64,000 bases of DNA, taken from positions 99,788 through 163,787 of the IMG/VR virus record IMGVR_UViG_3300019124_000001; one strand, given 5' to 3'. Origin of the DNA: a virus. The notes under the pieces were generated by a model, which was given only the letters and a program-made list of their open reading frames with translations, ran no database searches and was not told where the DNA came from. Of this stretch, positions 4,505 through 54,925 are shown in pieces; within the stretch, counting starts at the first letter, position 1, and the number at the start of each line of letters is the position of its first letter. A program made the position numbers and the translations under genes.

Positions 4505-4522
4505 ACCAAGGAGCATACAATA

Positions 4523-15071: not shown

Positions 15072-15078
15072 TAAAAAC

Positions 15079-15098: not shown

Positions 15099-15123
15099 AA
15101 AACTTCCAAAAGGAGCAACTAGT

Positions 15124-15357: not shown

Positions 15358-15360
15358 ACG

Positions 15361-15855: not shown

Positions 15856-15883
15856 GTGTTTCAATTTTTGGAGGTAAACTAAT

Positions 15884-16897
15884 ATGCAAGTAAAAATGAT
15901 CTATCATACACCTAACTACCACAAGCTCGTAGAGGCTCTTGCAAGAAACTGCTACCAATCTTACGAACGTTGCACTGAAACATCTCATAATATGCTTAAA
16001 GGAATTATGGCGAAAGGACATTTGAGTGTTGCTAGCGTAGGGAATATTGTTTTTAAGTTGCAAGCTGACAACTATGCTGAACTTGTAAGTTTGTATGGCG
16101 ACCTTATTGCATTTAAAGAGATTACACCTTTTATTCGTTGGACATTTCCAAACAAACAGAACCAAGTAGATCGCATTGTGGTATCTATGAACGTATTGAC
16201 GTTAATGGACATAAATAACAATTATGTTTCGTTTCATGACGACAACGATCATCCATCTGCCTTGTTGCCACAAATAATCGAACAGATTAAGGCTGTCCCG
16301 TATCTCCATTGGTTCCTAGATCATACAGTTGATGTGCCGTCAGCGCCAAATGAGTATCTTGTCACACCTGATTGGTCGAATCCAATCGTTTTGACTCAGG
16401 ATTATACGGCACTTAAAGAGCTTGGATTTACGGACTATGAACTTGACACACATGCTACTGTTACCGTAGACCTTGTTACAGATCGTGCGACAGGCTTACA
16501 AATGTGGAGACATGTAGCGTATCAAGGTGGAACGGAGCTATCGCAAAGATATGTTGACCGTTCAAATGCATCTTTCCGTGTACCTGTGGGTTTGGAACAA
16601 TTGAATACGGAAACCGAAGATTGGGTAGAATGGTTTAAAGACCTTATGAATTCACATTTGTCTAATTATAATATAGTCAAAGAGGAATTGGAAAATGCTG
16701 GAATTGGCAAAATGAGAGCTAAAGAAATGGCTCGAAACCTGCTCCCGAATATCCAGACCCGAATCATTCAATGTCGCCCATTAAAATATTGGAAACATTA
16801 TATCAATCTGCGGAATACTCCACACGCACAAGCAGAGATTCGGGAGGATACAAAAGCTCTTATCTCATCTTTCCAAAATGCAGGTATTGAAATTTAA
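15884..16897 (+). CDS. thyX: Flavin-dependent thymidylate synthase, variant ThyX, 337 aa
   Basis: Makes dTMP from dUMP using FAD and methylene-THF. Family landmarks: early CYQSYERCTE and HLSVASVGNIVFKL, then WRHVAYQGGTELSQRYVDRS and the C-terminal LPNIQTRIIQCRPLKYWKHYINLRN. The usual signature RHRx7S is changed here to RHVx8S, with Arg to Val and one extra residue. It is longer than typical ThyX (about 220-250 aa) owing to insertions near 90-180. It is the last gene of the nucleotide operon and is followed by a strong terminator. Confidence 0.85.
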   Translation: MQVKMIYHTPNYHKLVEALARNCYQSYERCTETSHNMLKGIMAKGHLSVASVGNIVFKLQADNYAELVSLYGDLIAFKEITPFIRWTFPNKQNQVDRIVVSMNVLTLMDINNNYVSFHDDNDHPSALLPQIIEQIKAVPYLHWFLDHTVDVPSAPNEYLVTPDWSNPIVLTQDYTALKELGFTDYELDTHATVTVDLVTDRATGLQMWRHVAYQGGTELSQRYVDRSNASFRVPVGLEQLNTETEDWVEWFKDLMNSHLSNYNIVKEELENAGIGKMRAKEMARNLLPNIQTRIIQCRPLKYWKHYINLRNTPHAQAEIREDTKALISSFQNAGIEI

Positions 16898-16898
16898 A

Positions 16899-16940
16899 AT
16901 ACAAAAAGCGGCTATCAAAAATGATAGCCGCTTTTTGTAT
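16899..16940. terminator. Strong bidirectional terminator
   Basis: A 19-bp perfect stem (arms 16899-16917 and 16922-16940, AAAA loop) with A-runs on the left and T-runs on the right. It ends the thyX operon on the plus strand and the tRNA-like ncRNA on the minus strand. Confidence 0.92.
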
Positions 16941-16943
16941 AAT

Positions 16944-17216
16944 TGGTGTGGGTGAGGGGATTCGAACCCCCAAGGATGTTTTTGCTGATCCGCAAATAGG
17001 GGCATAACCTCTTCGAAGCAACGAAACCTGATAATTCTCTGCATGGAGAGCGTATCGTGCACTCAATAGCATCGTGCCCGTTGGTACGATGCTTACCATC
17101 GGAGAATAAAAATCAAAGAAGTTATGTACTTTTACCGCAATTGCAGAATCGCTAGTCACAGAGCCTACGAATCGCACCCCTGCGTTTCGCCGTATGCCGT
17201 TTTCTGGTACACCCAC
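16944..17216 (-). ncRNA. tRNA-like-ended ncRNA, tmRNA candidate (273 nt)
   Basis: On the minus strand the 5' GTGGGTG (17216-17210) pairs perfectly with CACCCAC near the 3' end, followed by an A discriminator and an encoded CCA (16946-16944). A canonical T-arm (5-bp stem, loop TTCGAAT) precedes it. The 5' part has a D-loop-like AAAACGGCATA but no good D-stem, as in tmRNA. Long-range CGCA/GGGG pairs with CCCC..TGCG near both ends. Internal hairpins include AGCATCGT/ACGATGCT. A possible tag frame starts after ATAACT and stops eight codons later (TGG TAA). A TATAAT box lies 12 bases upstream and a terminator directly downstream. The tmRNA assignment is tentative. Confidence 0.6.
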
Positions 17217-17228
17217 ATTGTCTTGTAT

Positions 17229-17257
17229 ATTATAGCTTATTCGATTATGATACTAAT
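17229..17257 (-). promoter_or_regulatory. Minus-strand promoter of the ncRNA
   Basis: A perfect TATAAT (17234-17229 on the minus strand), with a weak ATTAGT at 17-base spacing. The predicted start is about 17222, some six bases before the acceptor stem of the ncRNA. Confidence 0.6.
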
Positions 17258-17320
17258 ATTCTTAATATTATTCGACAATAAACGACAATCATAATTCCTC
17301 GGTCATAATCTAGGAACTTG

Positions 17321-17350
17321 TTGACAAACAACAACTATGTATGATAGACT
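17321..17350 (+). promoter_or_regulatory. Promoter built on the shared element (copy 8)
   Basis: TTGACA (17321-17326), the 18-base element spacer AACAACAACTATGTATGA and TAGACT (17345-17350), with an extended TGA. It drives the gene at 17408. A small palindrome CAGGATAAATCCTG follows in the leader. The segment 17217-17407 holds only this promoter and that of the ncRNA. Confidence 0.7.
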
Positions 17351-17407
17351 AACGGTAACAGGATAAATCCTGCAATTGATTTTGGTGTATAGGGAGAGTG
17401 CTAATCT

Positions 17408-18145
17408 ATGAAACTCGGCTTGGGGCTGGCAAGACTTCTAAAACCTAATCCGATTGAAGAATTGATCAAAAAGGTCAATCGGGGAGATGTGGTCGTAGAC
17501 GTTAATACTGGAAACCTAGTGGAAACGAAGCATCTAGAGAGCAAAGAGGATGTGGTTGATCCTGTTATTGACAATGAGCTTTCACAATCCACCGAACCTA
17601 ATGAACCCACTGAAATAGAACAAAATCACGAAACCCTTGGCATTGTTTTGTCGCAAGACGTAGCAATGATGGCTGAAGAATTGAATGCGGACGATGGTGC
17701 TAATCCTTACTCAACCGCACAAATGGATATGTCTGCGTATCGTCCCAATCGTGTTGCAGAACTTGTGCAATCCATCTGCGATACCATGAATGAACTATCT
17801 GTTGTTAAAACCCAAATTAACAAAAAAATGAGCAATGTCGATAAAGAACTGAGTAACATTTATCATAATGCAGAAGTGCATCTTATGACCGATGAACAAG
17901 CTATTTCTGCATGGAGATATTTGCAGGATGTAGTTCGTACTCGCCGCCAAGTGAAGCACGAAAATGAGCTAATTAGTCATCTAGAAAGCAAATTTAAGTT
18001 CGAAACGTTTCTTCCACAACTTACTAATGCTAATAGCGGCGTTCAGAAGCGATACCGAGATCAGCAGAATTTTTGGGATAAAATAGAAGATGAAACTCCT
18101 ACTATCAATGGTACCAAAAAATCGTGGAAGAAGATGTACAAATAG
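17408..18145 (+). CDS. Unknown protein, 245 aa
   Basis: ATG after TAGGGAGAG. The N-terminus is basic and hydrophobic (MKLGLGLARLLKPNPIEELI), followed by an acidic low-complexity part (DNELSQSTEPNEPTEIEQNH) and a helical C-terminal half with coiled-coil character (NELSVVKTQINKKMSNVDKE). No domain recognised. It is monocistronic or nearly so, between two element-type promoters, which suggests tight separate control. Confidence 0.75.
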   Translation: MKLGLGLARLLKPNPIEELIKKVNRGDVVVDVNTGNLVETKHLESKEDVVDPVIDNELSQSTEPNEPTEIEQNHETLGIVLSQDVAMMAEELNADDGANPYSTAQMDMSAYRPNRVAELVQSICDTMNELSVVKTQINKKMSNVDKELSNIYHNAEVHLMTDEQAISAWRYLQDVVRTRRQVKHENELISHLESKFKFETFLPQLTNANSGVQKRYRDQQNFWDKIEDETPTINGTKKSWKKMYK

Positions 18146-18175
18146 TTGACAAACAACAACTATGTATGGTAAACT
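18146..18175 (+). promoter_or_regulatory. Promoter built on the shared element (copy 9)
   Basis: TTGACA (18146-18151), spacer AACAACAACTATGTATGG and TAAACT (18170-18175). It overlaps the end of the preceding gene and precedes a GTG start at 18196. Confidence 0.7.
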
Positions 18176-18195
18176 GAATTTACAGAGGTGGAGTT

Positions 18196-18297
18196 GTGAT
18201 CAAGTACGAAATTATCGAACGACTGCCTAATGATGAAATTCGAGTTAGAGCTACGGAAGGTTTGACAACGTGGATTTTTAAGAGGCTGGTGAAATAA
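18196..18297 (+). CDS. Unknown small protein, 33 aa
   Basis: GTG start after AGAGGTGGAG. The product is MIKYEIIERLPNDEIRVRAT followed by a short amphipathic end (WIFKRLVK). First gene after the promoter at 18146. Function unknown. Confidence 0.55.
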   Translation: MIKYEIIERLPNDEIRVRATEGLTTWIFKRLVK

Positions 18298-18465
18298 TTG
18301 GCTGAGTCAAAAGCTAAACGTTTGCGTAAAAAAATGAGTCGCGAAGGAAAACTAGACCCGTCAATTAAGCGACATGGCTGGAACGGCGTAAATCCCGTAC
18401 AGCGTGTAAAACATCATTCAAAGCGGCGTCTGATTGAAGAAGCTCAAAAGAGAGATGAGTACTAA
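18298..18465 (+). CDS. Small highly basic protein, 55 aa
   Basis: TTG start directly after the previous stop, with GGCTGGTGA as ribosome site. Rich in Lys and Arg (MAESKAKRLRKKMSREGKLD, RHGWNGVNPVQRVKHHSKRR). The charge suggests nucleic-acid binding. The RKxMxREGKLDPS pattern looks like a recurring small phage protein, but I cannot name a family. Confidence 0.65.
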   Translation: MAESKAKRLRKKMSREGKLDPSIKRHGWNGVNPVQRVKHHSKRRLIEEAQKRDEY

Positions 18466-18542
18466 GGTAACCGATGTGAATTTTTCAACATAGAACTAAC
18501 CGTTGTCGGAGTCTCCCAATATATTAGCAGAGGTGAACAATT

Positions 18543-18836
18543 GTGGAAGAAAAACTCGTTGACATTAACCTGCATCAAGATACCACTGGATTCACTCTTT
18601 CTTTATGGTTTGATGATGAATTTATGCCCAAGATAGATATAGCGGAAATTCTTGGCGTAAACATGCCTTTTGGTGATGAATATGTACATTTCATTGGCGA
18701 AGTGATCCGCAGAAATATGGTTGCTTGCGTTGATGGTGGCAAACCAAAAGTAATGGATGTTAAGTACGTCAACAGTCAACGCGCATTCACGATCAATGTT
18801 GATGGGAAAAAAGTTGGCGGCTATATTTTGAACTAA
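18543..18836 (+). CDS. Unknown protein, 97 aa
   Basis: GTG start after AGAGGTGAAC. Soluble alpha/beta protein (MEEKLVDINLHQDTTGFTLS...GKKVGGYILN). No motif recognised. The gap 18466-18540 before it shows no gene. Confidence 0.65.
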   Translation: MEEKLVDINLHQDTTGFTLSLWFDDEFMPKIDIAEILGVNMPFGDEYVHFIGEVIRRNMVACVDGGKPKVMDVKYVNSQRAFTINVDGKKVGGYILN

Positions 18837-18837
18837 T

Positions 18838-18856
18838 AAACAACAACTATGTATGG
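18838..18856 (+). repeat. Shared intergenic element, copy 10
   Basis: Core match fused to GGAGG, the ribosome site for the tiny gene at 18868. It begins right at the stop codon of the previous gene. Confidence 0.75.
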
Positions 18857-18867
18857 AGGTTTTGATC

Positions 18868-18930
18868 TTGGAGTTGAATTATGAAAAAGAAGCGGAAGCG
18901 CAATCCGAAATAGAGGAGTTTGAATACTAA
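18868..18930 (+). CDS. Tiny acidic peptide, 20 aa (tentative)
   Basis: TTG start after GGAGGTTTTGATC, reading MELNYEKEAEAQSEIEEFEY, stop overlapping the next ATG (TAATG). A second reading in another frame, ATG 18881 after GGAG, gives the basic decapeptide MKKKRKRNPK, so which is used is unclear. Its main function may be coupling translation from the element to the gene at 18930. Confidence 0.4.
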   Translation: MELNYEKEAEAQSEIEEFEY

Positions 18931-19262
18931 TGGCACGTTACCGAAAACTGTTGGGCAAGATTCTTAGAGCAGAGTTCGGCATGAATCAAAATGGAGAGAT
19001 GGGCTATTGTCTCTTTCTCCATTTTGGTAATCGTGGTTCGTTGGTATATGGGCTGTATGACGATAGCAGTACAATTGGATCAGAGATTCCGCAAATCTGG
19101 TACAATATGCAAAGATTTCTGACGGACGCAAAGGTTCAATACGTATCTCAACTGACTGGCATCCCCGTTGAAGTAGAACAATACGAAGATGGAACTGTCA
19201 GAAATATCAGAATCTTGACAGAAGTCATGGAGGAGAAACCAAGATGGCTAAACTCACGCTAA
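18930..19262 (+). CDS. Unknown protein, 110 aa
   Basis: ATG overlaps the tiny ORF stop, with AGAGGAG upstream. The product (MARYRKLLGKILRAEFGMNQ...GYCLFLHFGNRGSLVYGLYD) looks alpha/beta with a central beta hairpin. Its end overlaps the next gene by 19 bases. Function unknown. Confidence 0.7.
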   Translation: MARYRKLLGKILRAEFGMNQNGEMGYCLFLHFGNRGSLVYGLYDDSSTIGSEIPQIWYNMQRFLTDAKVQYVSQLTGIPVEVEQYEDGTVRNIRILTEVMEEKPRWLNSR

Positions 19263-19639
19263 TTTGTGGCAAGGCGAGAAAAGCAGATTTCATGCAACAA
19301 CTATATCGTGGCGATAAAACAAAAGACAAATTACTTCTTGACCTTGTAGGTTATCACGCATTTGAAGTAGATCGCTATTTCGGTGGGAGATTTGAAACTC
19401 TTGAAGACGTTAAGGCAATTTTGGAAGAATTGTCTAAATATTCTTCAGTACATGGCAATAAGATCGAGACATTATACATCTATGGAAACTTCCCTGCTGA
19501 CTGGAAGCAAGAGTTGAGAGAAATTTTAAGCAAAACATATCATATTCGAAACTTCGTTGTTACTATTCAAGAAGACGTGACAAATGTCAACATGGATAGC
19601 GATTATGAGTTTCGGGTAGAAAATTACTATCATATCTAG
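19244..19639 (+). CDS. Unknown protein, 131 aa
   Basis: ATG after ATGGAGGAGAAACC inside the preceding gene. It starts MAKLTLICGKARKADFMQQL, with a YIYGNFPADWKQELREIL segment. No catalytic motif recognised. Part of a close-packed operon with its neighbours. Confidence 0.7.
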   Translation: MAKLTLICGKARKADFMQQLYRGDKTKDKLLLDLVGYHAFEVDRYFGGRFETLEDVKAILEELSKYSSVHGNKIETLYIYGNFPADWKQELREILSKTYHIRNFVVTIQEDVTNVNMDSDYEFRVENYYHI

Positions 19640-19647
19640 GAGAAACC

Positions 19648-19959
19648 ATGATGGCTAAAAAACAATTAGAGATTCCTTTCGATAGGAACGGAAATCCGCT
19701 TTCTTATGATGATCGACTTAAAGTGCATGACTACCGTGCGAACTACGAATTTGTAACTACTATGCGAGTCGTTGATATGAGTCGTGGTCGAAGTGCGGCA
19801 AACTTCACGCTTAAAGACGAAAAAGGAATTGAATACAATATGTTTATGAAAGACATGTTATATCTGATTCAAAATTGCATTATTGACAAGGGTGTAGTCT
19901 CTGGTAAGTGGACTTTTGTCAAGCGTGGCAATAATTATGGAATTATGCTTATTGAATAG
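19648..19959 (+). CDS. Unknown protein, 103 aa
   Basis: ATG 19648 (or the adjacent ATG 19651) follows TAGGAGAAACC. The C-terminal half (MRVVDMSRGRSAANFTLKDE...GVVSGKWTFVKRGNNYG) has the look of a small beta-rich fold that may bind nucleic acid, by weak similarity of pattern only. It is directly upstream of the methyltransferase homologue. Confidence 0.68.
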   Translation: MMAKKQLEIPFDRNGNPLSYDDRLKVHDYRANYEFVTTMRVVDMSRGRSAANFTLKDEKGIEYNMFMKDMLYLIQNCIIDKGVVSGKWTFVKRGNNYGIMLIE

Positions 19960-19970
19960 GGGCGGAAAAA

Positions 19971-20924
19971 ATGAAAGAAATTAAAATAGTCAGCCTATTC
20001 TCTGGTGTAGGAGGGTTGGACTACGGTTTTCATAAATATCCACAAGCAAAATTTGTTTTCGCAAATGATATAAACGAGTTTGCATGTTACACATATCACT
20101 CGTACTTCGGTTTCAAGCCTATGTGTGCTGATATTGAACACGTGGACATCAACATGATTCCAGAGTGCGATCTTGTGATTGCAGGAAGTCCAAACAATGG
20201 ATTTAGCGTCGAAAATCAGATTAACAACTCTGTCAATCATCCATCCAATAAGTTGGTTGCCAAATTTGTTGAGATAGTCAAAATCAAAAATCCAAATGTG
20301 TTCATATTTGAAAATGTACCAGAGATTATGACAGTTGGTGGCGGCAAATACGCTCGATTCATCACAGAATCACTGTCCGATTATCATATTGAAATATATG
20401 AGGTCAACGCTTTGAATTATAGTGTTCCACAAAAACGAACAAGCGTCTTATTTGTTGGAAGCAAGATTGGACGGATTGAACGTCCAGTTCAAGATACTGT
20501 GACGTATACTGTCAGAGATGCCTTCGAAGGAATTCATAGCGGCATTCCAAATCAATCTGACGTAAATCCACATCGGAAGATTACTCTTGAACGAATGTCT
20601 TATGTACCAGCAGGGGGAAACATTAACGACATTCCAGAGGAGTTGCGACCGAAAGGCAATCACAGCGACCGCTATCGTCGATTAGAGTATGATAAGCCAA
20701 GCATAACAATTGCCAATCCACGAAAAGCTGTTATATTGCATCCCTTGCATGACAGAATCTTAACTGTTAGAGAATGTGCGAGAATCCAATCTTTCCCTGA
20801 CGATTTCTTGTTCTACGGTAGCTTGGATGAAAGACAGCAATTTGTCGCGAATGCATTTCCTCCGCGTCTCAGTGTTAAAATTGCTGATGTAGTGATGAAA
20901 GCATTTAATGAGAAATTAGATTAA
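19971..20924 (+). CDS. Cytosine-C5 DNA methyltransferase homologue lacking catalytic Cys, 317 aa
   Basis: Clear C5-methyltransferase architecture: SAM-binding motif I LFSGVGGLDYGF (9-20), motif VI FENVPEI (113-119), motif VIII QKRTSVLFVG (154-163), a target-recognition region (about 185-240) and motif X ANAFPPRLS. Motif IV, normally GxPCQ, reads AGSPNNGFS: the nucleophilic cysteine is Asn75. On family knowledge this enzyme should not methylate cytosine by the standard mechanism. It could be a DNA-binding decoy or regulator, or have altered chemistry. The gene is otherwise intact, so it is not simple decay. Confidence 0.85.
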   Translation: MKEIKIVSLFSGVGGLDYGFHKYPQAKFVFANDINEFACYTYHSYFGFKPMCADIEHVDINMIPECDLVIAGSPNNGFSVENQINNSVNHPSNKLVAKFVEIVKIKNPNVFIFENVPEIMTVGGGKYARFITESLSDYHIEIYEVNALNYSVPQKRTSVLFVGSKIGRIERPVQDTVTYTVRDAFEGIHSGIPNQSDVNPHRKITLERMSYVPAGGNINDIPEELRPKGNHSDRYRRLEYDKPSITIANPRKAVILHPLHDRILTVRECARIQSFPDDFLFYGSLDERQQFVANAFPPRLSVKIADVVMKAFNEKLD

Positions 20925-20941
20925 ACAAAAATTTTATCTAA
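20916..20941 (+). promoter_or_regulatory. Leader hairpin, family GATRAAA..TTTYATC, copy d
   Basis: TTAGAT...ATCTAA inverted repeat spanning the stop of the methyltransferase homologue and leading into AAGGAGAG, the ribosome site of the TTG start at 20954. Confidence 0.45.
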
Positions 20942-21292: not shown

Positions 21293-21295
21293 TTA

Positions 21296-21315
21296 GATGA
21301 AATCTCACTTTTATC
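21296..21315 (+). promoter_or_regulatory. Leader hairpin, family GATRAAA..TTTYATC, copy e (variant)
   Basis: GATGAAA-TCTCAC-TTTTATC, a 7-bp stem with a G.T pair at the position that is A.C in other copies. Unlike them, it is not fused to the ribosome site; 35 bases separate it from GGGGAGA before the gene at 21354. Confidence 0.4.
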
Positions 21316-21353
21316 AAATAGTAAAACTATAGAATACATCACAGGGGAGAATA

Positions 21354-35116: not shown

Positions 35117-35313
35117 TTGACTACACCTCCCCATTGTTTTACCAAATAATATAAGCCTACATAGAAATTACCTCCTTTGATAAATATTTATCTTATTTTA
35201 ACTTATTGGTGCTAATAAATATATCCATTATTACATGCTTAGTTTAATGCAAAGAATATAAATATATAGTGGGATTTTCTGCCTATTTTATTTTCATAAA
35301 ATGCCAATTTCAT
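35117..35313. other. AT-rich intergenic region before the lysis cassette
   Basis: About 200 very AT-rich bases between the lysis genes and the tail genes. A GGAGGT at 35171-35176 (minus strand) is followed by ATG TAG, so no product comes from it. I see no convincing promoter, though AT content would allow one. Confidence 0.4.
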
Positions 35314-35568
35314 CTATGCAATTACAATACCTTGCGTGTAGTCAAACAGTCGAAGATCGTATTCAACACCTTGAAAATGAATATGATCGCCACGGTCAAG
35401 CGTGATATACAGTTCTCCAATCGTCTCACTCAGCAAGCCCTCGATTACATCTTGCAATCTAGTTATATCATTAACTAGTATAACGGTAGCATAATGAGCA
35501 TTTCCCATTTCGCCCATTAACATAAGATATTGGCCTTCATAAAATCTTTTTAACATTTCGTTCAACAT
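35314..35568 (-). CDS. Unknown protein, 84 aa
   Basis: The minus-strand start follows GGAGGTGTAACT. The product (MLNEMLKRFYEGQYLMLMGE...) is soluble, with ITLDRGDHIHFQGVEYDLRL near the end. It lies between tail fibre accessory genes and the lysis cassette. Function unknown. Confidence 0.65.
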   Translation of the reverse strand: MLNEMLKRFYEGQYLMLMGEMGNAHYATVILVNDITRLQDVIEGLLSETIGELYITLDRGDHIHFQGVEYDLRLFDYTQGIVIA

Positions 35569-45476: not shown

Positions 45477-45923
45477 TTAATCTTTATACACAATCTGTTC
45501 TACAAGTTCGCACCAACGATCATAAACCAGCGCTTCTTGTGCGCTAAACAAACGATCACACTTATTCAATACGATGTCTCGCAAAGCAACAAGCATTTCT
45601 TTGTTGGGTTCGTTAAGTTCAATAATATAGTCCTCATTGAACAACTCTTCCATGTCACGATGAAATGCGTTAACGTCATTTACTTTGATCATTTCATTTC
45701 CACGCTCATCAATGTCCACCATGATCGAACCGTCTTCATTGAACTCTGCATAACGACGAATAATATCGACGCGCTCTTGATTAAATTCTGCAATCTGTGT
45801 CTTCAGATGTCTATTTACAAAACGTCCAAGCATCCTCGACTCCTTCGCTTGTAGATTTGTGAATGTCATAAGAAAATTACAAAAAGGCTCCATTTCATAT
45901 CGCTTAATCTTCATAAATAACAT
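45477..45923 (-). CDS. DUF1617-like tail protein, 148 aa
   Basis: Contains MKIKRYEMEPFCNFLMTFTN near the start and a helical body with VLNKCDRLFSAQEALVYDRW. The pattern (MKIKxxEM...F L...L... K.SR...R) is that of small DUF1617-type proteins next to Dit. ATG 45923 follows AGGAAAGGG; a longer frame back to 45965 has no ribosome site. Function in tail assembly is presumed from position only. Confidence 0.65.
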   Translation of the reverse strand: MLFMKIKRYEMEPFCNFLMTFTNLQAKESRMLGRFVNRHLKTQIAEFNQERVDIIRRYAEFNEDGSIMVDIDERGNEMIKVNDVNAFHRDMEELFNEDYIIELNEPNKEMLVALRDIVLNKCDRLFSAQEALVYDRWCELVEQIVYKD

Positions 45924-46010
45924 TTGTTGCCAACCCTTTCCTAAATATTCTGATACTTCAATCATACCACGGACATTAAATGATATGCAACAACGATTAA
46001 ATTAAGTAGG

Positions 46011-46034: not shown

Positions 46035-49000
46035 TTAAATGTTAAGACCAAGTTTTTTAGTACCTTTGACAATTTCCCCTAATAGGTAGTCGGCATCTTT
46101 CTTTGTTCCATTCAAATTGTCAATATGGATAGTTAGATGGAACGTCTTATTGGCTTCAACGGCTACGGCGTTTGAGGACGATTTCAGCATGTTTTTAATG
46201 TTAGGAATAAAGTTTTTGGTTACATTTTCTTCTGGTGCAAAAAGCTCTCCCTTTAGGGCTTTCACGATCCTTTCGTTCGGCTTAACGTTGAACAAGCTGT
46301 TGACAGCCCTCATAATGCTAGAGCCTGAACCGTTGCTACCCCCATCAACCAAGCCCCCAGTGTGATAGCTTTCAAGCCGTCTCAGATACGCTTCTTGCTC
46401 TGAAATGTCCATCTTGTTCTTCTTTCGATATTCAATTACAGACTTTACACGCTGAATCTCTTTGTCTCGTGCCGCTTTGTCTCGTTTATACAATTCTTGG
46501 CTCGATTTCCAATTTGGATTGTAGCCAGTACCTACACCATCAGTCCAAGAAGGAGGGAGTTCTTTGCCATTCGAATCCTTCTTATCTGATTTGTTAATTT
46601 CCTCCATAAGTTTTTTTGCATTGTTTAGTTTATCTATCAAGTTGTTTGATAACGAAGTTCCGATAATGCCAGATAGGTCTTTAAGTGTTTGAGTCATCGT
46701 GCCAAAGTTTTCTTGGATGTCTTTAAAATTTTGATCAAGAATTTGTTTTCGAACTTCTGACCAATGACGATCATCATTGATTAGTTCTTCGTATTTCTTC
46801 TTGGACGCTTCTAATTGTTTTCTAATGGAATCTTCTTCGTTTTTATTGCGTCTATCTTCTTCTTCTTTGGCCTTATCCGTTCGTTTTTTCATTGAATCGA
46901 GATCATCTTCCAATTGTCGTTTTGTTTGTTCGCGGTTATGTTTTGTAATATTTTTCTGAATTTCCTCGCGCTTTTCTGCAAGTTGTCGTTCTAATTCTTC
47001 GCGTTTTGCTTTTGCTTCGAAGCTGTTATCGAGCGCCAAAACGTCAATCTGACGTTGCAACTCCTGAGCTTCTTTTTGGTCTTTCTTTAATTGATCTTGG
47101 AAGTCTTCCTCGTTTGCTTTATCTTCTAACAATCTGATTTTCTTGTTTGTCGCATCTTCAAAAGCCTTATATTCGTCATCAATACGTTTCAACTCTTTTT
47201 CGTGACGATCTCTTTCGTCTTGTTCGCGCTTCTTAAAGGCTTCTTCTTCGACTTTTTGCAAGTCTTGATAATATTCCTTCCAAGCTGAAATTACGTCATC
47301 GGCTAAGGTATTCAAGACTCCCTTTAATTCATCCTGTGTTTTCTTAATACTGCCAGCATAATCCCACCATGCAATCTGAAGTTCGTTTAGACGTTTTTTC
47401 ATTTGGTCTGTCTGTTCTTGCGACAAAGTACCAGAATTCATGAGAGCGCGTATAGCATTTGCTTCTTCATGAACTGCTCGTTGCTGTGTTTGATACATAG
47501 CAATCGCTTCTTGCAATCCGACTCGGTAATCTTGTGAAGTTTTGTCCATCGTAGCAACACGTTTTTGCAGAAGTTGCAGACTAGATTCGACCGAAGTCAC
47601 ATTTAAATGCAATTCATCGAGATAACTGATTTGCTTGTCCCAATCTAGTTGTTCAATCTTTCTGGCAGTATCCATATAACTATTGCCAAGTTGAGCAATC
47701 TTATTATTATTTTCCTCGATTTTCTTTGCAAGTTCATTCGCTCGTCTGATTGTTTCATTGTCCTGCTTGTAAAGCGTTCGCAAATTATAGAGGGTATCGT
47801 TATACGTTTTGTTTTGAGCGCGATAATGATTCGCTTCTGCATGAAAGTTTTGCTGTTGTTGTTTCATTACTGCTATTTCTTGATCAATAACGCCTCTATA
47901 TTCTTTGGATGTATTGACCATTTCTTGCTTCCGATCATCCAAACGCTTTAGTTGACCTTCTAATTCGGTAGCTTTTGCCTTATAGACATCCATCTGGTAA
48001 ACATCCACAGGTTCTATGCTTGCACCGCTTGCTGATTTACCTTTCGATTCTTTCGGATTAAGGTCGCTCGAACTTAGTCCTGATTGTTTTAACGAAACTC
48101 CTGCCATACCTTTAAGACTTTCAATCTGCTGGTAATAGCTCATTACATCAAGGACTTCGCTCTTTGTTTTCAGATAATCCATGTCGATATAGTCAAAATT
48201 GTAACCGTCTTGCCCTGCTTTGGCTTTAGCCAAATCGCTTGCATGACGTGCGTCCATTTGTGCCAATGCTGTTTTAGCATCTGCAACAGATTGGATTGCT
48301 TGGATTTCTACACCATACATTTTTAACTTTTGCATCAAAGCAGAAGAAGAGTTGGCTAGGTCTGCATTCTGTGCCGCAATTGAATCTTGGAATGCTTTAA
48401 TTTTAGCATTTCTCCAAACTTCAATTGCCTGTTGATTAATCTTTACTTGACCACTCTCAATTGTGAAAGCATTGGCAAGTTCTTTCTCTTTCATAATCAA
48501 CTTCATGGCTTCGTCTGCACTAATTTGTTTGCCTTGCGCAGAATCATTTAGCAGTTTGTTCACAGTGCCCAAAGAATCCGTTAATTCATCGTAACGACTT
48601 GCAAGATCAGCAATACGAGATTCGTTAGCTCCGAGTTGCGAAGCGTTCTCGTTTGACACATCGCCTTGCTCCATCAATGCGGCATTCGCACCTCTTATTA
48701 CTGGTTCTGCCTGACTATTGGCATTGGTCAAATCGTTTATTGCCTGAAGTTGCTTTCTTGTTAAATCAACAGCACCTTGCGCTTCTTGATACTTTTGTTG
48801 TTTTTCTCCGAATTTACTATTAAAGTCAGTAAAACTTGACTCAATTTCTCGAATCCAGCGCTTTCTTTCTTCAACGGCTCTGATCTCCTGAGAGCTAACT
48901 TTGATTCCTTGAATCATTTTTCCGCTAAGTTCTTTTAGTTCTGCGTCTACTTTTTGTTTAATTTCTTGGATGTCTTCTGTGTTATATGCCTTTTGAAGTT

Positions 49001-51845
49001 CTCGCACACGATTCAGGTATCTTGAATCCATTTCGGATGAAGTGCTATCCAATTCATCTTTCGCTTCTTTTGCTTCTTGTTCTTGTTTGCTTAGTTGAAT
49101 TTGTAATATAGTTCTAGCTCTTTCTTTTTCTGCATCACTAGCACTACGCATTGATTCTGCATAAGCCTTAGCTTTTTGGCTTGCTTCGTCTAAATTGTCG
49201 GCATTTTTCTTAAAAGCATCAGCAACAGTTGGGGCGATTCTTTCCAATTCTTGCATAACACTTTTTAACTCTTGCTGTTCTTGTGTTGTTTTTCCAACTT
49301 TTTCTGAAAGTTCTACATAACGGTCTGACAATTTTGTTACTTGATTCGCAACAGTTTCGTGTTCTTTCGCGCTATCAATCAATTTTTGCGCATCATCACT
49401 AACTGCCTGAGAACTTCCTATTAGAGCTGACGTGAGCAAAGAAACGCCAGTAGCGATTACGCCAATCCATCCAAACGACAATTGCAATCCTTTTGCCGCA
49501 ATACCCATAGCTCCCATAGAAGCGGTTACGCTATTAAATACTGCGCGAAGACCAATGAAAGTTCCAGCAAGAACAGGAACCCATACGTTCAATCCGTAGG
49601 TTGCTTCTGTCAATTTGGTAAAACCGTTCGCCATAACGGTTAAAGTTTTAACGATAGCACCAAATGCTTGCCCTAGTCCGTTTTCGCCAATGGTTACAGA
49701 CAATGCTTCCCATGCAGTCTTTAACTTACTAATCTCTGCTTCTAGCGACTTTTGATAACGAGCATTTTCCTGCATAGCAGAACCAGTCGAATGTAAAGCA
49801 GTATTAGTTGCCTCTGCTCCCATTTGCCAGTTCGTCATTAGTGCCAAGAATCTAGTCAATTGATATCTGCCAGCTAGAACTACGCCAAGCTGTTGTTGTT
49901 GGGTATTCGAAAGGTTATCCCATTTCGTAGCAAGTTCGCCCAATACGTCAGAAACTGACCTTGCTTCTCCGTTCAGTTTGTAGTATTCAATACCTACAGA
50001 TCGCAATGCAGAAACTTGATCGTCACCGCCAAGTCGGGAGTAGATTGTTTTTAAGCCGTTACCAACCACATTGCCACTCTCACGAGTCGCGGCAGAAATC
50101 GCCGTGATGTGTCCAATCAATTCGTCTAGCGTAACGCCATAAGTCTTTGCTGATGAACCAGCTTTATGGATACCTTCTGCCAAAGTTTTCGTTGTAACAG
50201 CAAAATTGTTGTCAACTTCATTTAATTTATCGACAATGGTGATCGAGTCTTTTGCCGCAATGTTAAATTGTATCATTGCAGACGTTAGATCACTCGCCGC
50301 TTGTTGTGCCGTCAAATCAGAAACGTTGGCGGCAACAATAGCTGTCCGTGTTACATCTCCCAATTGATACTGATTGAAACCTTGTTGAGCAAAGTCTGCC
50401 ATAGTCTTTTGAACATCCGACAGATCGCGTCCAAGTTGTCCTGCTAGGTCAATTGACTTTTCTAGCATTGCATCAAAGTCAGTTTCTTCGTCCATTACAC
50501 GCTTTAATTGCGTCATGTTCGCGTCTACTTCTATGATTGTTTGAATCATTTGTTCGAGAGCGTGTTTTGTACCATAAATCGCAGTAGTAGCAATTGCCCA
50601 TGTCGGAACCCTTTCAAGAGCAATTTTTAATTCTTCTAACATGCCAAGTTTTCCGCGTGGAGCATCTTTCATGTTTTGGTCAAATTCATACAAAGACCTA
50701 GTTGCTTTGTCGATACTGCCCGAAAGGACTACCATCTTTCCGTTTCCTTCGGCAACTCTTGTAGACCATTTATAAATTTCGTTTCCGTTTGCATCAATGA
50801 CGCGAGTCAAATTGATCATGTCTGCACTGATGCCCTTTAGTCGAGATTGATACTGACTTGCAATCAAGTCTTGCATTGCAGACTTATTATTGAAGATGCC
50901 TAGCGGAAGATCAGATTGAAGAACAGTCCCCATTCTGGACACTCGAAGATTTTCATTTTGGCGACTCATTTCGAGCTGATATTGCTGTTGCTCAGTCAAA
51001 CGCTTAATTCTTTCTGCTTCGCGTTGAGCGGCGCGTTCTTGTTCAATTTGTTGCTGACGGAATAATCGTTCCAACATCTCTTGATAACGTTGATGTTCGC
51101 GGGCTGTTTGTGCACGTTCGCGCTCGACAGCCAACAATTGACGCTGAAGTTCAATAATTTCCTTATAGTATGTTTTTGCGTATTTTAATTCTTCAAGATT
51201 TGTACTTCCGCGAACTACGCTTTCCAGATTATCAATTGTTTTTTGCGGAACCACACCGTTTGCACGTAGCTGTTGCACCTGTTGCAACATCTTATATTGT
51301 TCAAGGTTTACTCGATGCAACATCTTCTCTGCCTTATCGAGTTCACCAACATTTACGATTTGAAATGATCTACGAAGATCGCCTTGTGCATCTCTAATAT
51401 GGATCAATTCACCACGGAACTTGCGCATGTAACCGTTGGCTTCTTCTATTTTTATCGTAAATCCTTGTAGTTCGTTAGTTAGTGGATGCAGAGAAGTAGA
51501 AGAAGATACTCGTCCATCACCAAATTGCTTACGAAGTTGAGCTACCGCATGTCCAAGACTTTCGGCAGTACGAATTTGACCTTTAATATCTGCTTCGTCA
51601 AATACACGAATCCTATTAGAGACATTGCGACCAAATCCATTTTGCACGATTCGTTGTGCTTGCTGAATTTGTTTTAATACCTCGTTTAATTGCTTGCTAT
51701 CGAATTCGGCACGAATACGCAAGGGCTGGATTCTTTGTGCAATTAGACTAACTTGTGCGTTTAGATCGGTGATAGCATCTCTCGAAGTATCCAAACTGGC
51801 ACGAATTACAATATTAAGATCACGATTACCTCTACCAGTACCCAT
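46035..51845 (-). CDS. Tape measure protein, 1936 aa
   Basis: Sets tail length and occupies the tube. The N-terminal 380 residues are helical, rich in Q and R (AQREAERIKRLTEQQQYQLE). The region about 400-720 is the conserved phage tail tape-measure core (LSDVQKTMADFAQQGFNQYQ, KTLAEGIHKAGSSAKTYGVT, RESGNVVGNGLKTIYSRLGG). A hydrophobic segment follows near 760-830, then long coiled coils (EFQKREQDER-type KEE repeats) to the C-terminus. I see no lysozyme or M23 motif. At about 1.5 angstrom per residue it predicts a tail near 290 nm. Confidence 0.93.
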   Translation of the reverse strand: MGTGRGNRDLNIVIRASLDTSRDAITDLNAQVSLIAQRIQPLRIRAEFDSKQLNEVLKQIQQAQRIVQNGFGRNVSNRIRVFDEADIKGQIRTAESLGHAVAQLRKQFGDGRVSSSTSLHPLTNELQGFTIKIEEANGYMRKFRGELIHIRDAQGDLRRSFQIVNVGELDKAEKMLHRVNLEQYKMLQQVQQLRANGVVPQKTIDNLESVVRGSTNLEELKYAKTYYKEIIELQRQLLAVERERAQTAREHQRYQEMLERLFRQQQIEQERAAQREAERIKRLTEQQQYQLEMSRQNENLRVSRMGTVLQSDLPLGIFNNKSAMQDLIASQYQSRLKGISADMINLTRVIDANGNEIYKWSTRVAEGNGKMVVLSGSIDKATRSLYEFDQNMKDAPRGKLGMLEELKIALERVPTWAIATTAIYGTKHALEQMIQTIIEVDANMTQLKRVMDEETDFDAMLEKSIDLAGQLGRDLSDVQKTMADFAQQGFNQYQLGDVTRTAIVAANVSDLTAQQAASDLTSAMIQFNIAAKDSITIVDKLNEVDNNFAVTTKTLAEGIHKAGSSAKTYGVTLDELIGHITAISAATRESGNVVGNGLKTIYSRLGGDDQVSALRSVGIEYYKLNGEARSVSDVLGELATKWDNLSNTQQQQLGVVLAGRYQLTRFLALMTNWQMGAEATNTALHSTGSAMQENARYQKSLEAEISKLKTAWEALSVTIGENGLGQAFGAIVKTLTVMANGFTKLTEATYGLNVWVPVLAGTFIGLRAVFNSVTASMGAMGIAAKGLQLSFGWIGVIATGVSLLTSALIGSSQAVSDDAQKLIDSAKEHETVANQVTKLSDRYVELSEKVGKTTQEQQELKSVMQELERIAPTVADAFKKNADNLDEASQKAKAYAESMRSASDAEKERARTILQIQLSKQEQEAKEAKDELDSTSSEMDSRYLNRVRELQKAYNTEDIQEIKQKVDAELKELSGKMIQGIKVSSQEIRAVEERKRWIREIESSFTDFNSKFGEKQQKYQEAQGAVDLTRKQLQAINDLTNANSQAEPVIRGANAALMEQGDVSNENASQLGANESRIADLASRYDELTDSLGTVNKLLNDSAQGKQISADEAMKLIMKEKELANAFTIESGQVKINQQAIEVWRNAKIKAFQDSIAAQNADLANSSSALMQKLKMYGVEIQAIQSVADAKTALAQMDARHASDLAKAKAGQDGYNFDYIDMDYLKTKSEVLDVMSYYQQIESLKGMAGVSLKQSGLSSSDLNPKESKGKSASGASIEPVDVYQMDVYKAKATELEGQLKRLDDRKQEMVNTSKEYRGVIDQEIAVMKQQQQNFHAEANHYRAQNKTYNDTLYNLRTLYKQDNETIRRANELAKKIEENNNKIAQLGNSYMDTARKIEQLDWDKQISYLDELHLNVTSVESSLQLLQKRVATMDKTSQDYRVGLQEAIAMYQTQQRAVHEEANAIRALMNSGTLSQEQTDQMKKRLNELQIAWWDYAGSIKKTQDELKGVLNTLADDVISAWKEYYQDLQKVEEEAFKKREQDERDRHEKELKRIDDEYKAFEDATNKKIRLLEDKANEEDFQDQLKKDQKEAQELQRQIDVLALDNSFEAKAKREELERQLAEKREEIQKNITKHNREQTKRQLEDDLDSMKKRTDKAKEEEDRRNKNEEDSIRKQLEASKKKYEELINDDRHWSEVRKQILDQNFKDIQENFGTMTQTLKDLSGIIGTSLSNNLIDKLNNAKKLMEEINKSDKKDSNGKELPPSWTDGVGTGYNPNWKSSQELYKRDKAARDKEIQRVKSVIEYRKKNKMDISEQEAYLRRLESYHTGGLVDGGSNGSGSSIMRAVNSLFNVKPNERIVKALKGELFAPEENVTKNFIPNIKNMLKSSSNAVAVEANKTFHLTIHIDNLNGTKKDADYLLGEIVKGTKKLGLNI

Positions 51846-51901
51846 AGTTAATTCACCCCTTTTAAAGATGCAAAGATCGCAGGGATGAGTTCCCTACGAT
51901 C

Positions 51902-52879
51902 TTAAATTTCAAACTTCTTATTCGATTCTTTTAACTTTTTGTTGTTACGCTTAATATAATGGTCTTGTGTAACTTGTGTGCCACTGTGATTCAGCAGAGC
52001 CGAAACCTCTTCCAAAGGCATACCCATTTGATATTTCAAATTACTTCCAGAATGTCGCAAATCGTGACAATGCAATTCTGGAATATTGATCATTGCACCA
52101 ATTTTCTTAATCCAACTACCCTGCAAAGTGCCTTTTTCGACCTTTTTCCATTCACCCTTGTACTTGGTGATAAAAAGATATTCCGATTCAATCTTTTCCT
52201 TTTTTCGATATGCAAGCCACTTTTTAATAAGTTCAAACGTATATTCAGAAGGGAATAGATCAACAGTTTTGCCTTCTTTTTCAAGTACCCCGTTAACTTC
52301 TTTCTCTTCAAAGTTGATTTGTTCAATGCGAATATTCGAAATTGCATTTGCACGCGCCATCGTAGATAGACCAAATTCGAAGAACAATTCTAGTTGTAAA
52401 TTTCCTTCCTTCTTCAAGCCACTACGAATCATTGCGATTTGTTCTTCTGTCAAATAAGTCTGTTTCACTTGCAATTTCTCGTCTTTTCGTACTTTAGGGC
52501 GTTCAATGTATTCCATTGGGTCTTCGGTCATTTTTCTCTTCTTACGTAGAAGTTTGAAGAAAGAAGATATACAACTTAAACGTCTTTGTATGCGTCTTTC
52601 GTTATTGCCCAAAGTATCTCGACAGAATGCTACAAACGCTTCGAGCATTTCAGAAATTTCTTCTGCATCAAATGACATTAAATCTTGATTGTCATACTCT
52701 TCCAATATGAATACTAACCACTGATTAAAATCTGATTCATATGAGTACTTCGTAGAGTCCGAAAGTGTCATCGCCTTTGAGTTAAAGTAATTTTTTATAT
52801 GACGTTTATTTTTAGGATTTACTTGATCCAGCTTTTCAGGAGTAGCGTAATGTACGTACTTTCGTTTATTTCCCGACAT
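51902..52879 (-). CDS. Tyrosine recombinase (integrase family), 325 aa
   Basis: The N-terminal SAM-like DNA-binding region (about 30-125) is followed by a catalytic domain with the full tyrosine-recombinase set: Arg176 in MARANAISNIR, His272 and Arg275 in HDLRHSG, His298 in LLNHSGTQVTQ and Tyr308 in DHYIKR. It therefore looks active. It lies inside the late tail operon, directly before the tape measure gene. SPbeta carries a recombinase-like gene (yomM) in its late region, so a parallel is possible. No attachment site was recognised here. Confidence 0.85.
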   Translation of the reverse strand: MSGNKRKYVHYATPEKLDQVNPKNKRHIKNYFNSKAMTLSDSTKYSYESDFNQWLVFILEEYDNQDLMSFDAEEISEMLEAFVAFCRDTLGNNERRIQRRLSCISSFFKLLRKKRKMTEDPMEYIERPKVRKDEKLQVKQTYLTEEQIAMIRSGLKKEGNLQLELFFEFGLSTMARANAISNIRIEQINFEEKEVNGVLEKEGKTVDLFPSEYTFELIKKWLAYRKKEKIESEYLFITKYKGEWKKVEKGTLQGSWIKKIGAMINIPELHCHDLRHSGSNLKYQMGMPLEEVSALLNHSGTQVTQDHYIKRNNKKLKESNKKFEI

Positions 52880-52880: not shown

Positions 52881-53372
52881 TTATGTCACCTCAACCTTAT
52901 AGCCCTGTGAACGAAGATAGTTTGCCAAGGACTTCACGTGTCGCCCACTACTTTGTAGTTCTTTGAAAGCGTTATCCATATATGGACGGGGTTTCGTCCA
53001 AAAGCCCTGACCGAAAATATGACCACTTGTACCGTCATTTACAGTCTGTGCAACATATTGACTATAGTCTTGCGGAGTATAGCTCTTAACTGCGCTGTGG
53101 TGTTGGTAATACGGTCTTCCAACCGCATGTATCATATCAGTATTATGGTCAATGACTACAACAGCTTCCTTACCTTCGATACTAGGTTCAAAATCTACAC
53201 TTTCGCGTAATTCTCTTGTACGTTGGTAAACACTTGGGTCGAATGAATAGACATCCTTATCCAAGCGTTCCTGCACCACTTTCTTTGCAACCTGACCGAC
53301 ACCCATCATGCCACGCTCCAAGTCGTTCAATAAATGTCTAGCCAGATCATCAAGATTATTAAATGTCGGCAT
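52881..53372 (-). CDS. HK97-gp10-like tail-completion protein, 163 aa
   Basis: ATG 53372 after AAGGGTGATAAA. Features of the gp10-like family: an N-terminal helical region (RHLLNDLERGMMGVGQVAKK), a central beta part with YSFDPSVYQRTRELRESVDF, and a C-terminal end with RPYMDNAFKELQSS. Members join head and tail or finish tail tubes. It lies one base before the recombinase gene, within the tail genes. Confidence 0.72.
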   Translation of the reverse strand: MPTFNNLDDLARHLLNDLERGMMGVGQVAKKVVQERLDKDVYSFDPSVYQRTRELRESVDFEPSIEGKEAVVVIDHNTDMIHAVGRPYYQHHSAVKSYTPQDYSQYVAQTVNDGTSGHIFGQGFWTKPRPYMDNAFKELQSSGRHVKSLANYLRSQGYKVEVT

Positions 53373-53862
53373 TTTTATCACCCTTATTCAAAAGTAACCT
53401 AGCCACTTCTTCGTTTTCGATGTCCAGTTTTGCCGCTTCGCGTTCAAATTCGTCGAGAGTGTCCAATGCCGACTGACCAAGATCAACTATGCGCTGACCG
53501 ATCTTATACATTTCATCTTCAGGCATTTCGTTGACGATCTTGTCAAATAACTTCAAGTCAAGCAACAAATTCATTACTTCCATTTGACCATCCAAATCAT
53601 TGGGAATATCTAGAGATGTAAAATACTTCATTGTCAAAAGTATTGCATATGGCGACAAGATTGTTTCCAGTTTTGCGCCATTTTTTCGAAATTTATCACC
53701 AGCATTGATCAGTTCGTATACCATTTGTTCAATTTTTGTATCACGGAAAATCGAATCAATTTCCAGTGTGAAACCATCAATGACTACCTTTCTCGTGCCC
53801 CCGAACAGCTTTTTGTCTTCTTTGCGAAGATTAGCAACTGTAAGTTTTGATTGTTTTGCCAT
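53359..53862 (-). CDS. Possible tail assembly chaperone, 167 aa
   Basis: ATG 53862 after AAAGGAGGAAAGC. A helical acidic protein (MAKQSKLTVANLRKEDKKLF...) located between the major tail protein and the tape measure, the usual place for tail assembly chaperones. I did not find a convincing frameshift site, so the assignment rests on position. It overlaps the next gene by 14 bases. Confidence 0.6.
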   Translation of the reverse strand: MAKQSKLTVANLRKEDKKLFGGTRKVVIDGFTLEIDSIFRDTKIEQMVYELINAGDKFRKNGAKLETILSPYAILLTMKYFTSLDIPNDLDGQMEVMNLLLDLKLFDKIVNEMPEDEMYKIGQRIVDLGQSALDTLDEFEREAAKLDIENEEVARLLLNKGDKNADI

Positions 53863-54025: not shown

Positions 54026-54043
54026 ATGAAGCCCTTCTTTCTA

Positions 54044-54063
54044 GATGAAAGTCACATTTTATC
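54044..54063 (-). promoter_or_regulatory. Leader hairpin, family GATRAAA..TTTYATC, copy f (minus strand)
   Basis: On the minus strand GATAAAA-TGTGAC-TTTCATC followed by TAGAAAGAAGG, the ribosome site of the small Cys-rich gene. It has the same A.C mismatch as copies a and c, and is the only copy in the late region. Confidence 0.45.
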
Positions 54064-54083
54064 TAAGGTATAAATATAAAAAG

Positions 54084-54120
54084 AAAAAGGGGAAGAGATG
54101 CTGAATCTCTTCCCCTTTTT
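54084..54120 (-). terminator. Strong terminator after the major tail protein
   Basis: A 16-bp perfect stem (arms 54084-54099 and 54105-54120) with A and T runs on both sides; the minus strand reads CTTTTTATATTT after it. A strong hairpin after the major tail gene lets that abundant protein be made in excess. Confidence 0.9.
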
Positions 54121-54127
54121 CACCCCA

Positions 54128-54925
54128 TTACGCTTCAGGGTAGTGGATGAATTGAAGCAACTTCGAATTACCGTCTTTGAATAGCTCCAAGTTGAAGTCG
54201 AATACAGTTGGGTCGCCAGATGGGTTCAATTCTAGACTGAATTCTGGCATTAGCTTCGCCTTCGGAATGAAAACTTGGAACGGCTCGTCTTGACCTGTAC
54301 GTTCGTTTCGAATTACAGTGTCTCCGATCACTCGATAGTAGCCAGGGAAGTTTGTGGCATCCAAAGTAATTACCGAAGCTGTGTTCTGGCTCATGAATTG
54401 ATAGTAAACAATTGCTTTATGACCAGCATTAATTGCGTCAGTCGTCAACTTCGTTACTCCTCCTGAAGTAGACACCGTATACTCTGTTGCCGAAGCTACA
54501 CCACCACCGCCAGCGGCATTCGCATCAGTAATTTCGTCGTCATGCGATCTTCCGTTAGTTGTGCTATATACAGTAATAGTACCTGCAATAGCTTGCTTGG
54601 TAAGCGTCAAAACCCCTGCGTTGTCGAATGTCAACACTTCGCGCTTATAAATCGGAACCGCCACGCCAGTCTGAAGCGGATTTCCAGTTTGCATAGCAAG
54701 CGCTGTCGGATCAAGCAATGCGTTCTGAATAGTCAATTGAGCGGTTTTGTTGCTATCCCAAGCAAGAATTCGACCTGCACCTTCGCCACCAGTCGCATAC
54801 TTTACATCGGCTGTAGACTCAAAGTTGGTCATTTTTAGCGTGTCCAAATAAAGAACGGGCTTATTGGTAATAAGGTCAAAAAAGGTAAGGTTTGCCACCT
54901 CAAATACACCAAAACGTTCTGCCAT
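54128..54925 (-). CDS. Major tail protein, 265 aa
   Basis: The tube subunit, expected as many stacked hexamer rings. N-terminal MAERFGVFEVANLTFFDLIT ... LDTLKMTNFESTADVKYATG and C-terminal PEFSLELNPSGDPTVFDFNL are typical of beta-sandwich tube proteins. A central part (about 95-175) with TITVYSTTNGRSHDDEITD looks like an inserted domain. It is flanked by a strong terminator, as usual for this highly expressed gene. The minus-strand ribosome site is AGGAGG. Confidence 0.85.
   Translation of the reverse strand: MAERFGVFEVANLTFFDLITNKPVLYLDTLKMTNFESTADVKYATGGEGAGRILAWDSNKTAQLTIQNALLDPTALAMQTGNPLQTGVAVPIYKREVLTFDNAGVLTLTKQAIAGTITVYSTTNGRSHDDEITDANAAGGGGVASATEYTVSTSGGVTKLTTDAINAGHKAIVYYQFMSQNTASVITLDATNFPGYYRVIGDTVIRNERTGQDEPFQVFIPKAKLMPEFSLELNPSGDPTVFDFNLELFKDGNSKLLQFIHYPEA

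Follow-up and report, generated by a model that had tools for sequence, protein, structure and literature searches.

A conserved tyrosine recombinase gene in the tail operon of SPbeta-like and Tyrovirus-like phages, and dispersed, addressed 28-bp sites as a candidate substrate

The tail operon of a 163,787-bp virus contig encodes a tyrosine recombinase that, judged by its sequence, is very probably an active and conserved enzyme of the Xer type. SPbeta-like and Tyrovirus-like phages carry about 7 to 25 dispersed 28-bp sites each (11-bp arms, 6-bp core), with arms common within a phage group. These look like addressed recombination sites at which genes have apparently been swapped between phages. 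The window analyzed here is the last 64 kb of the contig (G000); loci elsewhere are given in contig coordinates and marked as such. The contig appears to be complete, and circular or permuted, since its end ORFs match one and the same gene in the related genomes G001 and G004. The recombinase gene and its late position are already in print, as gp50 of the Tyroviruses (PMC9703825). What is new is not the gene itself but the system of addressed sites in the phage group to which the recombinase belongs.

The gene (51902-52879, minus strand) starts with ATG and encodes 325 amino acids, of which residues 142 to 313 match the Pfam Phage_integrase family (4.6e-20); PHROG families labeled "integrase" match with values up to 1.5e-40. 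The first-pass annotation had described an apparently active tyrosine recombinase with Arg176, His272, Arg275, His298, and Tyr308. All five residues are found at these positions and, together with the hairpin lysine K201, make the predicted catalytic set complete (R176, K201, H272, R275, H298, and Y308). An AlphaFold2 model (mean pLDDT, 91) contains the core-binding and catalytic domains only, so that a two-domain fold lacking an arm-binding domain is predicted with confidence. The best fold matches in the PDB include XerA, XerH, the integron integrase IntI, lambda Int, and Cre. The R-K-H-R-H/W-Y active site and the two-domain make-up are the marks of a simple (Xer-like) recombinase. XerC/XerD, XerA, XerH, and Cre of P1 are built from the same two domains with the same catalytic set, but the G000 protein is encoded by a phage late gene. 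According to PMC8138268, simple tyrosine recombinases serve dimer resolution, integrons, or mobilization, and 27 of the phages counted there have simple recombinases versus 410 with an arm-binding domain.

Upstream of the recombinase, a gene with a weak tail completion/Neck1 match (52881-53381, minus strand; phrog_5, 6.9e-7; phrog_19892, 1.9e-10) stops one base short of the recombinase start codon, and the tape-measure gene (46035-51845, minus strand; phrog_4211, 1.3e-261) lies directly downstream. The recombinase is co-directional with the late structural genes, which bears out the earlier placement within the tail operon, one base from a tail gene. The position between a neck-type gene and the tape measure is that of Tyrovirus gp50. 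PMC9703825 describes the Tyroviruses as Bacillus phages of 160 to 170 kb in which three tyrosine recombinases are conserved: gp19, next to plasmid-maintenance genes; gp50, between the neck protein and the tape measure; and gp175. The place of gp50 is called "especially curious" there and recurs in Perkons and in Lactococcus 949-type phages; a palindrome after gp50 is proposed as attP, and the function of gp50 was left open in 2022 ("Further work is required"). G000 shares this slot and a matching recombinase trio with Thrax1-5, Tsamsa, and their relatives. The likeness is drawn from position; no record named Tyrovirus was present among the 56 matches of one search or among the 25 listed of the 57 matches of another, the seven Bacillus phages counted in the latter being among the other 32. 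The two systems differ in that PMC9703825 treats all three recombinases as Xer-type, whereas in G000 the second has an HxxK motif and the third is MrpR-like.

A recombinase-like gene in the late region of SPbeta, named in the first-pass annotation, is indeed present: yomM (NC_001884, 40301-41302) occupies the same slot upstream of the tape-measure gene. There, yomJ, yomK, and yomL lie between yomM and the tape measure, whereas the window gene directly precedes it. YomM is only about 16% identical to the window protein, was found by profile only (2.3e-14), and forms a long branch in the tree beside a distant post-lysis group. Zero to three genes separate the relative from a tape-measure gene, or one of similar length, downstream of it in Brevibacillus phage Sundance, KKP_3916, SPbeta, LC76P1, and five phage-sized plasmids; the slot before the tape measure thus recurs in other phages more than by chance. 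It is not universal in the wider family, where a same-strand ORF of at least 700 aa lies within 4 kb downstream in 19 of 48 clusters, some of the others being cut by contig ends. In Clostridioides difficile phages, the relative sits after the holins and a separate integrase is present, and in Enterococcus phage 9183, Lactobacillus phage P1, and Leuconostoc phage phiLM33, a distant relative sits after lysis or tail genes.

Two local features were seen beside the gene. A gene of 140 to 162 aa follows the tape measure in the window (45477-45965) and lies between recombinase and tape measure in G001 (160724-161146) and G004, a local rearrangement beside the recombinase. Just after the recombinase stop codon and ahead of the next late gene, G001 and G004 carry a good promoter sequence of the sigma-70 type (TTGACA/TATAAT).

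Conservation of the family was assessed on 116 profile hits, of which 89 passed the score and length limits (27 dropped) and formed 48 clusters at 90% identity. Two truncated clusters were set aside, KKP_3916 (split between frames) and L132 (contig end). The residues R, K, H, R, and H occupy the aligned columns in all 46 full-length clusters; the catalytic Tyr is at column 308 in 37 of them and one column earlier in the nine most distant. Only 10 columns are invariant in a 23-member alignment, and six of these are catalytic. In the tree, all 24 late-type rows fall into a single clade (support, 99/96), separate from a YopP-like clade that holds 15 of the 18 second recombinases. The family of late recombinases is an old one and CATALYTICALLY kept. 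There are exceptions: in SPbeta YomM, Lys replaces the second catalytic Arg (R275), and the gene of Alicyclobacillus phage KKP_3916 is split between two frames (11995-12964). Recombinase activity may therefore be dispensable in some phages.

One alternative reading is a noncatalytic regulator of late genes acting in the manner of MrpR, a protein which, according to PMC10516654, shows that a recombinase fold can turn into a repressor; the loss of the second Arg in YomM points the same way. Dimer resolution and regulation, both named by the first-pass annotation, count among the possible roles. Regulation is nonetheless the less likely because the catalytic residues are invariant in the full-length clusters, and we regard a noncatalytic regulator as very improbable.

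Another reading, suggested in PMC9703825, is that of a lysogeny integrase in an unusual late position that integrates via the palindrome after the stop codon. Its active site is complete, no serine recombinase match was found in the G000 genome, and a palindrome lies directly downstream both here and in Thrax1. The G000 palindrome (51874-51902) is imperfect, follows the stop codon immediately, and reads AAGATCGTAGGG-AACTCAT-CCCTGCGATCTT on the coding strand, a 12-7-12 arrangement as opposed to the 11-6-11 of PMC9703825. The first-pass annotation had stated that the gene is not near an attachment site. A palindrome does occupy the slot of the "putative attP," against that statement, but it is not distinctive: palindromes of like quality are present in 29 of 125 intergenic gaps of G000 and in three of 10 late-operon gaps. 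Applied to 17 other recombinase copies, the same criterion (arms of at least 10/11, spacer of 3 to 9, no more than 100 bp from the stop) yields no palindrome in 16 and a terminator-like one in the 17th, that of Enterococcus phage 9183. Looser palindromes (at least 9/11) follow the copies in G004 and L015. The palindrome was accordingly rejected as a distinctive feature.

The other recombinases and maintenance genes bear on integration as well. As for an integration module elsewhere in the genome, a point raised by the first-pass annotation, G000 yielded no serine recombinase but two further proteins with a recombinase fold. The second recombinase (contig 19637-20680) is YopP-like, has an HSFK motif, and lies near a TubZ-like gene (contig 16676-17806) and a RecD2 gene (contig 14096-16453). 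The third (contig 64220-65197) is MrpR-like (PF22822, 1.9e-18). Of the three, only the late protein thus has the complete canonical set, given the HxxK of the second and the MrpR-like nature of the third. In the YopP-like clade, 12 of 15 rows (two of these rows identical) have Lys for the second catalytic Arg, as YomM does, a rare natural variant. The stretch at contig 16676-20680, in which the Tubulin/TubZ-like GTPase is accompanied by a small neighboring ORF, perhaps TubR, and by the YopP-like recombinase, is conserved in G001 and G004 and is probably a plasmid-maintenance module; in other relatives, ParM-like or ParA genes lie near the YopP-like second recombinase. The MrpR-like protein is followed by an HTH/TPR protein, possibly AimR-like (contig 64220-66704), and together they may form a lysogeny switch of the arbitrium type in a plasmid-type phage.

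Among recombinase-bearing records, large serine integrases were found in none of nine, two of 12 (SPbeta and plaBV1), and one of 18 (G009), depending on the set. TubZ matches occur in three of nine records, ParA matches in five of 21 (four above the cut-off), and ParM-like matches in nine of 21 (eight above the cut-off). No tyrosine recombinase other than the distant relative was found in Enterococcus 9183, Lactobacillus P1, and Leuconostoc phiLM33, nor was a large serine integrase, ParA, or ParM-like match obtained there. A lysogeny integrase would be expected to have no other integrase alongside, but in plaBV1 and G009 a relative of the late gene occurs together with a large serine integrase. 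Because the gene is seen in phages that have a serine integrase, in phages that have partition genes, and, as distant relatives, where neither was found, integration is unlikely to be its main task, and the late-timed integration proposed earlier loses ground. With its coexistence with both kinds of gene, the lack of the palindrome in nearly all other copies, and a fold without arm-binding domain, the integrase reading is quite unlikely.

Cre-lox of P1 offers the model for a further role, in which multimers or terminally repeated linear genomes would be converted to monomer circles at one site. The Xer/Cre-like domain make-up agrees with such multimer resolution or circularization, as do the best matches in the plasmid collection, since 19 of 21 are records of 122 to 148 kb, i.e., phage-sized plasmids, and five of the six opened are annotated as circular. 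Headful or short-DTR packaging also leaves repeats, according to PMC9703825 and PMC8270828. Resolution should, however, be needed most while the prophage is a plasmid, a state in which silent late genes are expected. In eight of the 15 records with both (G000-G005, Sundance, and pPLP3), no more than about 4 kb separates a second recombinase from a partition gene, and no single conserved site was found. We hold this role possible but doubtful.

The sequences show that the active site is complete and conserved, the place by the tape measure recurrent, and the occurrence of the gene independent of the mode of phage maintenance. We infer its timing, from its position, as late, and likewise its activity and phage DNA as its substrate. 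A likely role in the lytic cycle fits best. The recombinase would be made alongside the tail proteins, while many phage genomes are present, and would act on short dif-like sites on phage DNA, with two arms of about 11 bp and a core of about 6 bp, either to separate genome multimers or to exchange gene cassettes at dispersed sites. That the protein is an active Xer-type recombinase of the lytic cycle recombining dif-like sites on phage DNA, not a lysogeny integrase, is in our estimate evenly balanced.

The first-pass annotation had proposed a search for inverted repeats that the enzyme could use. A search for palindrome families with an 11-bp arm on either side of a 6-bp spacer revealed a dispersed 11-6-11 family. 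G000 has 13 sites with at least 16/20 identity to TTAGATGAAA-N6-TTTTATCTAA, 11 of them intergenic; the reversed pattern gives none, and arm-permuted patterns give a mean of 0.7 (maximum, 3). In the window, one site with the core GTCACA lies in the late operon (54041-54066). A site with 18/20 of the arm consensus (3954-3979) precedes an ORF of 99 aa, and another follows it (4286-4311). An ORF of 112 aa is similarly preceded by a site with the core CAAAAA (20916-20941) and followed by one with the core TCTCAC (21293-21318). Two weaker sites (17/20) were seen at 35292-35317 and at 3482-3507, the latter inside an ORF call and doubtful. Just upstream of the late-operon site, a strong terminator-like hairpin (54083-54121, minus strand) follows the gene at 54128-54925 (minus strand), and G001 and G004 have a dispersed site in a similar place.

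Scored against their own consensus, G001, G004, Sundance, G003, and G005 have 11, 11, 10, 8, and 11 sites, with 1, 2, 0, 0, and 0 matches to the reversed pattern; owing to low-complexity arms, single arm permutations reach 9, 12, and 10 in G001, G004, and G005, and other spacers reach 10 and 16 in G001 and G004. Families of seven sites are present in plaBV1, a Limosilactobacillus reuteri plasmid, and a 148-kb Bacillus velezensis plasmid (shuffles, 0), and a family of 10 sites is present in Vagococcus (shuffles, 0). SPbeta, Goe11, phi3T, and BUCT083 have 25, 25, 17, and 25 sites, with one reversed-pattern match each. In SPbeta, 21 of the 25 lie outside any ORF call. Sites sit at gene boundaries and sometimes on both sides of one gene, as for mtbP and yoqY of SPbeta and the 99- and 112-aa ORFs of the window. 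No site family was found in LC76P1 or KKP_3916. Counts are not clearly above shuffles in phiCDIF1296T (6 versus up to 5) and in the partial sequence of LIBA6276 (6 versus up to 4), and the four sites of Paenibacillus larvae pPLP3 fall inside the permuted control (mean, 2.7; maximum, 7). Ligilactobacillus salivarius pMP1046B has a family of another, ill-defined motif. A pattern scan of viral_contigs gave 22 stretches for the G000 arms, each on another contig with one match apiece, and 38 for the G001 arms, 11 of them in G001 and G004 and the rest on single-site contigs, one of which is G002. In the open-access literature, no paper with yomM as a gene and none describing the dispersed sites was found.

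Gene exchange at the sites was examined in the four SPbeta-like genomes, in Sundance, G003, and G005, and in G001 and G004. Of the 42 distinct cores in the SPbeta-like genomes, 25 are shared by two or more genomes, and no genome has the same core twice, save one reverse-complement-equal pair in BUCT083. Of 84 same-core pairs, which are not independent events, 26 have homology on both flanks, 27 on one, 27 on neither, and four in part, compared to 187, 31, one, and 21 for 240 control noncoding 28-mers with a match. Of the 25 SPbeta sites, 13 have a homology breakpoint no more than 12 bp away, versus three of 29 other hairpins. Random noncoding windows give a mean of 4.1 (maximum, 10) and gene-end windows one of 5.2 (maximum, 12); none of 1,000 draws of either kind reaches 13. 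Counted by breakpoint, the signal is weaker, with 17 of 166 near sites and random windows giving means of 5.9 and 7.2 (maximum, 18 in both). At the core TTCTAA, phi3T has a left flank like that of BUCT083 and a right flank like that of SPbeta, and there are similar chimeras at TGTAAG and TTAAAG. Between the cores GATCAA and TTTGTC, SPbeta (mtbP) and phi3T (3177-5571) have a DNA methyltransferase gene; a different small ORF lies between the same two cores in BUCT083. In Sundance, G003, and G005, a common core is found in 10 of 240 site pairs, nine of them without a flank match over 30 bp, while letter-shuffled cores give 0.16 (maximum, 3 in 5,000). Five of the six cores shared by G001 and G004 have homology on one flank only, although divergence may hide the other flank.

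Homologous recombination in short shared sequence drives gene exchange at the promoter/stem-loop cassettes of T4. By analogy, the dispersed sites could be operators of a regulator, unrelated to recombinases, with gene changes arising by homologous recombination in short shared sequence. Their location between genes, often at a stop codon or ribosome-binding site, agrees with this, and the 17 breakpoints near sites do not exceed every random draw. The lab-made hybrid Hyb2 also agrees, its two large switches lying in identical stretches of 1,405 and 4,896 bp that would include sites only by chance. Of two tiny SPbeta-like pieces in Hyb2, one has no nearby site and the other is uninformative. The phi3T record used, KY030782, is not the exact parent phi3Ts. 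Operators would not account for cores that are unique within a genome and recur between genomes, nor for the excess of same-core pairs with neither flank homologous. MrpR was considered for SPbeta, with nine of the 10 targets in the ChAP-seq list of PMC10516654 (all but yosX). The best-shared word upstream of them is AAAAATATGTATATA (8/9), one of the nine, yorE, is preceded by a site at a distance of up to 300 bp, and none of the 25 sites lies within 40 bp of the SPBRE word, so that the sites were rejected as MrpR operators (SPBRE) in SPbeta. We give the operator reading limited credence and consider it somewhat probable that the dispersed sites do serve some phage recombinase as sites of recombination. 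The orientation of the sites relative to genes varies in G000, which bears on a reading as RNA hairpins. Host dif sites were rejected as well: against a B. subtilis dif consensus, the best match exceeded shuffles in only one of five genomes (Sundance, 21 versus at most 20).

The late recombinase is one of two candidate users of the sites, the other being the YopP-like protein, and either or both may act. Evidence from the arms points in both directions. By sites with up to five mismatches, plaBV1 has 16 SPbeta-type sites (reversed, 0), 10 of the Sundance type (control, 1), and two of the G001 type (control, 0). The late recombinase of plaBV1 resembles that of G000 (60%), and a search of plaBV1 gave no YomM match; SPbeta-type arms there despite such an enzyme point away from the late recombinase as the one that sets the arms. 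Conversely, phi3T and BUCT083 have SPbeta arms in common even though their YopP-like proteins are only 31 to 32% identical to SPbeta YopP (YomM, 98 to 100%), which points away from YopP. XerC and XerD act as a pair on unlike arms, and a similar enzyme pair would suit G000 and Sundance, whose arms are asymmetric. A part for the late enzyme at the dispersed sites is a tentative proposal.

Tyrosine recombinases need matching cores. If each of the roughly 7 to 25 sites of a genome combined the common arms with its own 6-bp "address," only corresponding slots of two genomes would recombine, giving a slot-by-slot swap between co-replicating phages. The late recombinase, alone or paired with the YopP-like protein as XerC is with XerD, would exchange cassettes in this way during the lytic cycle; its production alongside the tail genes would thereby be explained. 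We put forward such recombinase-mediated cassette exchange in SPbeta-like and Tyrovirus-like phages, with the late recombinase as its lytic-cycle agent, as a speculative possibility.

A close parallel is with the dif modules (pdif) of Acinetobacter plasmids, which consist of many 28-bp 11-6-11 sites with common arms flanking exchangeable genes. They resemble the phage sites in their shared arms and variable 6-bp spacer. Many such 28-bp sites are found in the phages, and gene content changes at them in the four SPbeta-like phages, less clearly in G001 and G004. The phage sites differ in that the phages encode their own tyrosine recombinases, the arms (TAAAA-N6-TTTTA) are unlike dif, and the cores of SPbeta-like phages are unique within a genome and recur between genomes. 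The dispersed addressed sites are a concrete candidate substrate for the late recombinase or its partner. If the proposal is true, they would represent a dedicated site-specific route to mosaicism among phages of the SPbeta group, where homologous or illegitimate recombination is usually invoked, and a phage counterpart of the gene-shuffling dif modules on Acinetobacter plasmids.
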